A model generated the notes under the pieces. The model was not told the origin of the DNA, did no database searches, and worked only from the letters and a program-made list of their open reading frames with translations. This document shows positions 55,171-57,064 of a stretch of 64,000 bases of DNA, one piece after another. Source of the DNA: Symbiobacterium thermophilum IAM 14863 (GTDB lineage: Bacteria; Bacillota; Sulfobacillia; Symbiobacteriales; Symbiobacteriaceae); the NCBI RefSeq assembly GCF_000009905.1, contig NC_006177.1, forward strand, positions 3,234,595 through 3,298,594. Reading direction: 5' to 3'. Positions within the stretch are counted from its first letter, which is position 1, and each line of letters opens with the position of its first letter. The translations under genes and the position numbers were made by a program.

Positions 55171-55710
55171 CTAGGCCTCGGCACCCTCCAGCTGGCGGAT
55201 GCGCGCATCCAGCGCATAGGCGAAGCTGGCCAGCAGGCCGTTGATGGCGCCGGCGACGCCCTGCAGGGGCGCCTGGATGCCGGCCAGCACCTGGGCGAGC
55301 AGGGTCTCGCGGTTGGGCAGGTCGGCCAGCGCCTTCACCCCGTCCGCGTCGATGACCTTCCCCTCGAGGATGCCGGCCTTCATCACGAACTTGGGCTCCC
55401 GTTCCTTCGCGAAGAACTCGCGGATCTTCTTGGCGCCCGCGGCCTCGTCCTCATAGGAGAACGCCAGGGTCGTGGTGCCGTGCAGGTACGGCTCGAGCCC
55501 TTCGATGCCCAGCTCCCGGGCAGCGATGCCGATCAGGGTGTTCTTGGCCACCTTCAGCTCGACACCGGCCTGCCGGAGTTCCCGGCGCAGTTGCGTCACC
55601 TGGGCGACGGTCAGCCCGAGGTTATCGGCCAGCACGACGCTCTTGGCGTTCTGCAGGGCCTCCTTCAGCTCGGCCACCGCCTGCTGCTTCTCGGGACGGA
55701 TCGTGCGCAC
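55171..55710 (-). CDS. rplJ: Ribosomal protein L10
   Basis: Stalk-base protein L10, 179 residues. It anchors L7/L12 dimers and represses its own operon by binding the leader RNA, a complete copy of which lies upstream. VVLADNLGLTVAQVTQLRRE and VAKNTLIGIAARELG are typical. The start is GTG 55710. Confidence 0.98.
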   Translation of the reverse strand: MRTIRPEKQQAVAELKEALQNAKSVVLADNLGLTVAQVTQLRRELRQAGVELKVAKNTLIGIAARELGIEGLEPYLHGTTTLAFSYEDEAAGAKKIREFFAKEREPKFVMKAGILEGKVIDADGVKALADLPNRETLLAQVLAGIQAPLQGVAGAINGLLASFAYALDARIRQLEGAEA

Positions 55711-55744
55711 GTTCTGTTCACCCCCTTAACCGGAACATGAAGAA

Positions 55745-55774
55745 AGACCTCCGACCATAGCCAGTCGGAGGTCT
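55745..55774 (-). terminator. Attenuator terminator in the rplJ leader
   Basis: AGACCTCCGAC and GTCGGAGGTCT form an 11-bp stem with an 8-base loop, followed on the minus strand by TTCTTC. It lies between the L10 leader fold and rplJ. Confidence 0.82.
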
Positions 55775-55895
55775 GAGATGTAGCACCCAGACGCGCGCGC
55801 CCCGGGAGGCGCGACATCCGACCTCGGCGGGCTGGCGAAAACGCCACTTAGGCCTGTGCGGCACCTGCTGTCTACGGTCGTTCACTATGGAGTTC
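55775..55895 (-). ncRNA. Ribosomal protein L10 leader RNA
   Basis: The minus strand contains CGACC-GTAGACAGCAGGTGC, a long hairpin arm with GGCG-TTTT-CGCC, then GCCGAGGTCG, which closes on the first CGACC. The AGACAGCAGGTGC and GCCGAGG blocks are the conserved L10-binding kink-turn of the bacterial L10 leader. L10-L12 binding is expected to favour the downstream terminator. Confidence 0.88.
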
Positions 55896-55908: not shown

Positions 55909-55937
55909 AGTATATCCCTTTGGTGTGCAGGCGTCAA
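55909..55937 (-). promoter_or_regulatory. rplJL promoter
   Basis: TTGACG (55932-55937) and TATACT (55909-55914) are 17 bases apart on the minus strand, just upstream of the L10 leader. Confidence 0.85.
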
Positions 55938-55959: not shown

Positions 55960-56094
55960 TTACGCCCGCTCCTCCTCCAGCATCTCTTCCAACCGGATCT
56001 TCTCCTGGATCAGAATGCGCTTCTCCGCCGGCGAGGCCTTCAGCCACCGGTCGACCAGGCTCTCCAACCGCTGCCGGATCTGGCGCTCGTCCAT
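55960..56094 (-). CDS. Small charged protein of 44 residues, unknown
   Basis: I do not recognise this gene. ATG 56094 follows GGGAGGTGAAACGGCAG, a good ribosome site, and the frame ends at TAA 55960-55962. The product is highly charged and helical, with segments such as RQRLESLVDRWLKASPAEKR and EEMLEEERA, and could form a coiled coil. It has its own strong promoter about 70 bases upstream and sits between the rplA terminator and the rplJ promoter. The codon bias matches its neighbours. Function cannot be inferred. Confidence 0.6.
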   Translation of the reverse strand: MDERQIRQRLESLVDRWLKASPAEKRILIQEKIRLEEMLEEERA

Positions 56095-56164
56095 CTGCCG
56101 TTTCACCTCCCGCCACCGTTGCTGTATGGCGATTTTGGCTATATGTAGATCTCAGCCCCGGCCT

Positions 56165-56193
56165 ATAGTATCCCGCAGATGTCGCGCTTGCAA
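56165..56193 (-). promoter_or_regulatory. Promoter of the 44-residue gene
   Basis: TTGCAA (56188-56193) and TACTAT (56165-56170) are 17 bases apart on the minus strand. They lie between the rplA terminator and the small gene, with no other gene to serve. Confidence 0.7.
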
Positions 56194-56238
56194 TACAGGA
56201 TCGACCCGATTCGACATGGTCCCCGCAGGCGCGATAAA

Positions 56239-56263
56239 GGGGTCCGCCCCGAAGGCGGACCCC
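56239..56263 (-). terminator. Terminator after rplA
   Basis: GGGGTCCGCC and GGCGGACCCC form a 10-bp stem with a 5-base loop, followed on the minus strand by TTTATC. Confidence 0.85.
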
Positions 56264-56279: not shown

Positions 56280-56987
56280 CTACTTCTCCGCCGTGGCGGT
56301 CAGGCGGGCCGGGTTGACCTTGATGCCGGGGCCCATCGTCGCCGAGATGGTGACCGACTTCATGTACTGGCCCTTCGCCGCCGCGGGCTTCGCCCGGAGC
56401 AGGGCCTCCGTGAGGGCCCGGAAGTTCGCCGCCAGCCGCTCCACGTCGAAAGAGGCCTTGCCGATGGGCGCCGCGACGATGCCGGCCTTGTCGGTCCGGT
56501 ACTCCACCTTACCGGCCTTGATCTCCTGGATAGCGTTGGCCACGTCGAAGGTGACGGTGCCGGTCTTGGGGTTGGGCATGAGGCCGCGGGGACCGAGGAT
56601 GCGGCCCAGCCGGCCGACCAGGCTCATCATGTCCGGGGTGGCCACAGCGACGTCGAAGTCCAGCCAGCCCTCCTGGATCTTGGCCACCAGGTCCTCGGCA
56701 CCGACGTAGTCCGCGCCGGCGGCTTCGGCTTCCTTCGCCTTCTCGCCCTTGGCAAACACGAGCACCTTCACTTCCTTGCCCGTGCCACCAGGCAGCACGA
56801 CGGCGCCGCGGATCTGCTGGTCCGCATGGCGGACGTCGACGCCCAGGCGATAGGCGACCTCGATCGTCTCATCGAAGTTGGCCGTGGCGGTCTTCTTCAC
56901 CAGCTCCAGGGCCTCCATGGGATCGTACAGCTTATTGCGGTCGACCAGCGCCGCCGCACTCCGGTACTTCTTGCCATGCTTCGGCAT
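56280..56987 (-). CDS. rplA: Ribosomal protein L1
   Basis: Large-subunit stalk protein L1, 235 residues. ATG 56987 ([17 protein letters not shown]) follows AAGGAGG; the frame runs on to 57050. [20 protein letters not shown] is the family signature. Confidence 0.98.
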
Positions 56988-57064
56988 TGTGATCTTCCTC
57001 CTTGTGGTTAAACCGCGATTCGGCTGCCGCCCGAAGGCAGCCTCCCACAAGCCAAGGCCGTGCG

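Follow-up and report, generated by a model that had tools for sequence, protein, structure and literature searches.

Sda is a 46-residue sporulation checkpoint hairpin (PF08970) of sporulating Bacillota, which is built of two antiparallel helices and in Bacillus subtilis is controlled by DnaA. SinI, an antirepressor of 57 aa in B. subtilis, is activated by Spo0A~P and is formed by helices around a short turn. The Spo0E-like phosphatases (PF09388) are likewise small helical hairpins. In a window of 64,000 nucleotides, the whole stretch of Symbiobacterium thermophilum IAM 14863 DNA that was analyzed, we found a gene between rplA and rplJ whose product is predicted to resemble these proteins in shape. 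The microprotein is like Sda in its size, in its predicted two-helix antiparallel hairpin, and in its sporulating Bacillota host, but has no sequence match to it; Sda is also set apart by its DnaA control in B. subtilis. The Sda profile gave no match at the locus and none above the cut-off in 11 genomes. The microprotein shares with SinI its small size and helices around a short turn, while activation by Spo0A~P, known for SinI, would here be a matter of inference; no Pfam SinI match was found for any of the 14 members of the microprotein family at E-values up to 10. Spo0E-like members were detected above the cut-off in two related genomes (G003 and G004), but the microprotein lacks the S-x-x-L-D-x-L motif, and its comparison with the Spo0E profile covered 13 columns only, at 12% probability. 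Membership in the Sda, Spo0E, or SinI families was therefore rejected, as no profile matched.

The 44-residue frame lies on the minus strand (56094..55960, stop included), from an ATG at 56094-56092 to a TAA at 55962-55960, and encodes MDERQIRQRLESLVDRWLKASPAEKRILIQEKIRLEEMLEEERA. An alternative GTG 12 nt 5' of the ATG overlaps the Shine-Dalgarno sequence, and the alignment of relatives starts at the ATG. An earlier note, made from the sequence of the window, had described such a frame between rplA and rplJ with a good ribosome site, and both points hold. It had also called the promoter ideal, which overstated a sequence that, though conserved, falls below the threshold of our promoter scanner (9/12) and was not listed by it. 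The note had further described the unit as isolated by a terminator on one side and by the rplJ promoter on the other. The hairpin on the rplA side (56263..56239; GGGGTCCGCC-loop-GGCGGACCCC then TTTATC) is real, with a folding energy of -24.5 kcal/mol and a z of -3.6, and the rplJ promoter starts 22 nt past the microprotein stop; the weaker part of the claim is the T-run of the hairpin, which is short, and for this reason the hairpin is missing from the terminator scan. The microprotein gene is its own transcription unit.

Table 1 Features of the microprotein locus (positions in the window).
Feature	Position	Strand	Evidence
rplA (L1), upstream neighbor	56280..56993	-	
Terminator hairpin (weak T-run) that follows rplA and sets the unit apart from it	56236..56263	-	Folding energy; also present in G002
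Putative Spo0A site, TGTCGAA plus degenerate GGTCGAT	56200..56216	-	Invariant in five f1 genomes
Sigma-A type promoter, TTGCAA-17-TACTAT	56165..56193	-	-35 ATTGNA and -10 conserved in both f1 and f2; 8 of 12 consensus bases
Inverted 0A-like element CGCGACA, possibly a third one, between -35 and -10	56180..56186	-	Degenerate in Symbiobacterium itself
Shine-Dalgarno sequence GGAGGTGA	56103..56110	-	GGAGG-type site before ATG in 8/8 orthologues
Microprotein coding sequence	55960..56094	-	Intact in 8/8 order genomes; purifying selection, frame-specific
rplJ promoter, TTGACG-17-TATACT	55909..55937	-	Promoter scan; conserved in relatives
L10 leader RNA of rplJL (RF00557)	55733..55895	-	Rfam match, 52 bits (cut-off 44)
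rplJ (L10), downstream neighbor	55171..55710	-	

We compared the frame across the eight available genomes of the order, which comprise a family f1 of five genomes (G000-G004) and a family f2 of three (G005, G006, and G007). Orthologues share 50-84% identity, and their differences cluster at third codon positions. Within f1, dN/dS was 0.16-0.23 in nine of ten pairs and 0.07 in the remaining one, and between the two most similar f2 genomes the aligned core holds six differences, every one synonymous. A six-frame control on five close pairs gave the microprotein frame the lowest pN/pS every time, and apart from antisense frame 0 no other frame was free of stops in all five. The claim that the frame is coding is well supported, because third-position bias, low dN/dS, and the six-frame control agree. 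The earlier note had proposed conservation and synonymous-site bias in relatives as the check on its reading, and a broken frame or a purely non-coding RNA as the outcomes that would speak against it; the frame is intact in all eight genomes, with a dN/dS of about 0.2 within a family, and neither adverse outcome was found.

That the frame is not a gene, and is instead a by-product of the rplJ 5' region (a leader RNA or leader peptide), is barely credible. The frame is short, and in Symbiobacterium no terminator lies between it and rplJ; against this stand the frame-specific synonymous-site pattern, the low dN/dS, the conserved ATG and Shine-Dalgarno sequence, and paralogues found away from rplJ. 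The RF00557 covariance model does not cover the frame and matches wholly downstream of it. From the codon statistics and the position of the Rfam L10 leader, a non-coding or leader RNA only was rejected.

The gene was found to be confined to one order. A protein search over 41 genomes recovered the eight order genomes and no clear E-value outside them. A profile search of 154 genomes of the class returned the same eight plus two marginal matches inside long frames, so that none of the other 146 class genomes gave a convincing match. Scanning a large collection of species genomes yielded only loci matching genomes of Symbiobacterium's order. Matches to the PolC frame in G005 and G007 were taken as chance helical similarity. 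A phage origin was also rejected, as no homologue occurs among phage records or viral contigs. In an open-licence library, literature on Symbiobacterium in connection with Spo0A or small proteins, and on the interval between rplA and rplJ, was searched and yielded nothing about the gene. The gene is thus real, protein-coding, previously unnamed, and restricted to Symbiobacterium and its order, and its products securely form a new lineage-specific microprotein family.

To characterize the product, we predicted its structure and searched for related proteins. AlphaFold2, run on seven sequences, gave a helix at residues 3-19, a short turn, and a helix at residues 22-43 (pLDDT 94.8, pTM 0.69). The charged, probably coiled-coil product of the earlier note is thereby supported as a charged helical protein, in the form of a predicted two-helix hairpin. 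Seven residues are invariant across the 14 family members (M1, L10, W17, P22, K32, R34, and E36). The window protein matched no Pfam or NCBIfam family, and the microprotein had no PHROG match and no sequence-related PDB structure. Scans of all 14 members gave weak matches only (Rnk_N, E 0.009, in two members; MinE, 0.025), which were set aside as helical and of low specificity. Foldseek retrieved generic hairpins only, with a best E-value of 0.89; ribosomal protein L29 was among the hairpins of similar overall shape with E above 5 and no sequence relation found. The product, small, charged, and predicted to form a hairpin, shows no catalytic signature, and it most likely acts by binding a protein.

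Paralogues were found at other loci. One form, MRRPI..RP....ELDWLVDQW...PEERLQIVLAKIRAEE, adjoins pepF in the three Symbiobacterium genomes; the G004 paralogue is on a contig with a pepF fragment, and G003 holds a further copy. At L027:9711-9905 the paralogue is convergent with pepF. The region upstream of the pepF paralogue (TTATCGACCTATACAATATT...TGATATCAT) shows strong conservation within the genus but no exact 0A core. A third form of the family, in G003 (L030:448-633), is convergent with an HflX-like gene, a neighbor identified by eye.

We analyzed the gene neighborhood across the order. Upstream, rplA was found in seven of the eight genomes, the exception being G001, where the contig begins in between. 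In G001 the end of a group II intron stands at the contig start just 5' of the microprotein promoter (L003:20-94), at the place expected for rplA. Downstream, rplJ was likewise found in seven of the eight; in G007, queD/queE-like genes come next. These and other genes follow the microprotein in that genome (L033:5385-9800), with no rplJ within the next 4.5 kb. The earlier note had suggested a protein associated with the ribosome or RNA polymerase. A hairpin that binds the ribosome, close to L1 or to the L10/L12 stalk, or the polymerase would account for a gene that has not left the L11-L1-L10-L12-rpoBC cluster. Wherever the contig includes rplA, the gene follows it, and G007, with rplJ separated, is no exception; a small, charged, helical product would suit such a role. 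However, a promoter of its own and a hairpin boundary set the gene apart from the ribosomal-protein operon, its paralogue family occupies non-ribosomal loci, no ribosomal or polymerase factor matches it in sequence, and the L29 matches are those of a weak, generic hairpin. It is from the location of the gene only that a possible role at the ribosome or RNA polymerase follows; because the rplA-side position is kept in the order, the idea retains some weight, and we consider it unlikely.

The upstream DNA also bears on this question. We aligned the 166 noncoding nt upstream of the gene in the five f1 genomes and found 40 of the 166 positions to be invariant, most of them inside a conserved 37-nt block, TGTCGAAT-NN-GGTCGAT-NNN-GTATTGCAA-NNNN-GACA, which is followed by the -10 element; the remaining noncoding sequence is largely diverged. 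TGTCGAAT and GGTCGAT are invariant in the five genomes without exception. TGTCGAA is the core of the Spo0A site, with protein contacts at G2, C4, and G5 (PMC3485338). An exact copy of it lies at 56216-56210 and the degenerate copy GGTCGAT at 56206-56200, in a 10-bp register; counted from the inferred transcription start, the 0A boxes fall near -58 and -48. In a shuffle test the P value was 0.0005 for a 0A core inside an invariant 7-mer of the 166 nt in f1, and 0.014 for a core present anywhere in them, values that serve as guides only because we recognized the motif on inspecting the block. The inverted element in the -35/-10 spacer is exact in G004 (TTCGACA) and reads TTTGACA in G003. In f2 the promoter layout is kept (TCGAAT...GTC.A...ATTG.A) without an exact Spo0A core; the box of G005 and G006 is TCTCGAA, with a contact base changed and a spacing of 11 bp, and G007 has no clear 0A box in the region upstream of the microprotein. 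As the f2 layout persists but its box is altered in this way, Spo0A control is best supported for f1. Judged from these motifs, Spo0A control of the microprotein promoter is likely. A regulatory block of the Spo0A type also speaks against a role at the ribosome or RNA polymerase. With a conserved promoter of its own that bears a putative Spo0A site, the gene looks less like a part of the ribosome than like a small regulator linked to sporulation.

We then analyzed Spo0A and its known targets in the order. Spo0A is encoded in all eight genomes (above the TIGR02875 cut-off). The classical Spo0A targets spoIIGA and spoIIE carry the 0A core, as TTCGACA, upstream in 6/6 and 3/3 of the order genomes examined, respectively, and in the S. 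thermophilum spoIIE promoter TTCGACA stands in tandem with TTCGGCA at 10 bp. The exact motif at both genes suggests that the Spo0A box is conserved across this high-GC order. Upstream of spo0A itself, in S. thermophilum and G002, no 0A core was seen even when one mismatch was allowed. The five f1 genomes also encode a second Spo0A-like protein (for example G000:C1:247673-248395), which at about 202-223 bits exceeds the TIGR02875 cut-off; none is listed for f2 genomes in the same search.

A different activator might bind the TGTCGAAT-GGTCGAT block, with the protein serving a housekeeping or stress role apart from sporulation. This would fit the f2 genomes, which retain the promoter layout but not the exact core, and a composite motif for which no other conserved noncoding site was seen in the genomes. 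A large regulon for TGTCGAATNNNGTCGAT was rejected, since most other genomic matches appear inside coding sequence. Against another regulator, an explanation that we regard as somewhat unlikely, stand the exact Spo0A core, the 10-bp register, and the recurrence of the core before spoIIGA and spoIIE in these genomes.

The conserved Spo0A box in the promoter points to sporulation or stationary-phase control. We propose that the gene encodes a lineage-specific, Spo0A-controlled helical-hairpin microprotein working by protein binding, a reading for which our confidence and our doubt are about equal. Spo0A~P would bind the tandem 0A box and stimulate the weak sigma-A promoter when starvation or sporulation sets in. 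The product, 44 residues long, would fold as an antiparallel two-helix hairpin and dock stoichiometrically on a partner protein, which may be a kinase, a phosphorelay protein, a repressor, or another regulator. Its mode of action would be like that of Sda, SinI, or Spo0E, without membership in their families. We infer Spo0A binding, activation rather than repression, the timing, and action by protein binding from these features. The 0A boxes are just upstream of a weak -35 element, a position as expected of an activator, while the inverted 0A-like element in the spacer makes repression possible. Counted against Spo0A are the promoter of the pepF paralogue, which has no exact core, the altered f2 box, and the rplA-side position kept across the order, for which a role in sporulation alone gives no need. 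A wider version, in which a Spo0A~P-switched hairpin family would link sporulation entry to the translation or transcription machinery from the ribosomal-protein/rpoBC cluster, is decidedly doubtful.

The lineage, in which Sda was not found and Spo0E-like proteins are scarce, offers here a simple unit of one promoter and one protein. To this branch of Bacillota, high in GC and equipped with Spo0A, the locus contributes a conserved microprotein family that had not been described, and it suggests that a small helical regulator encoded amid the ribosomal-protein genes belongs to the Spo0A regulon there.
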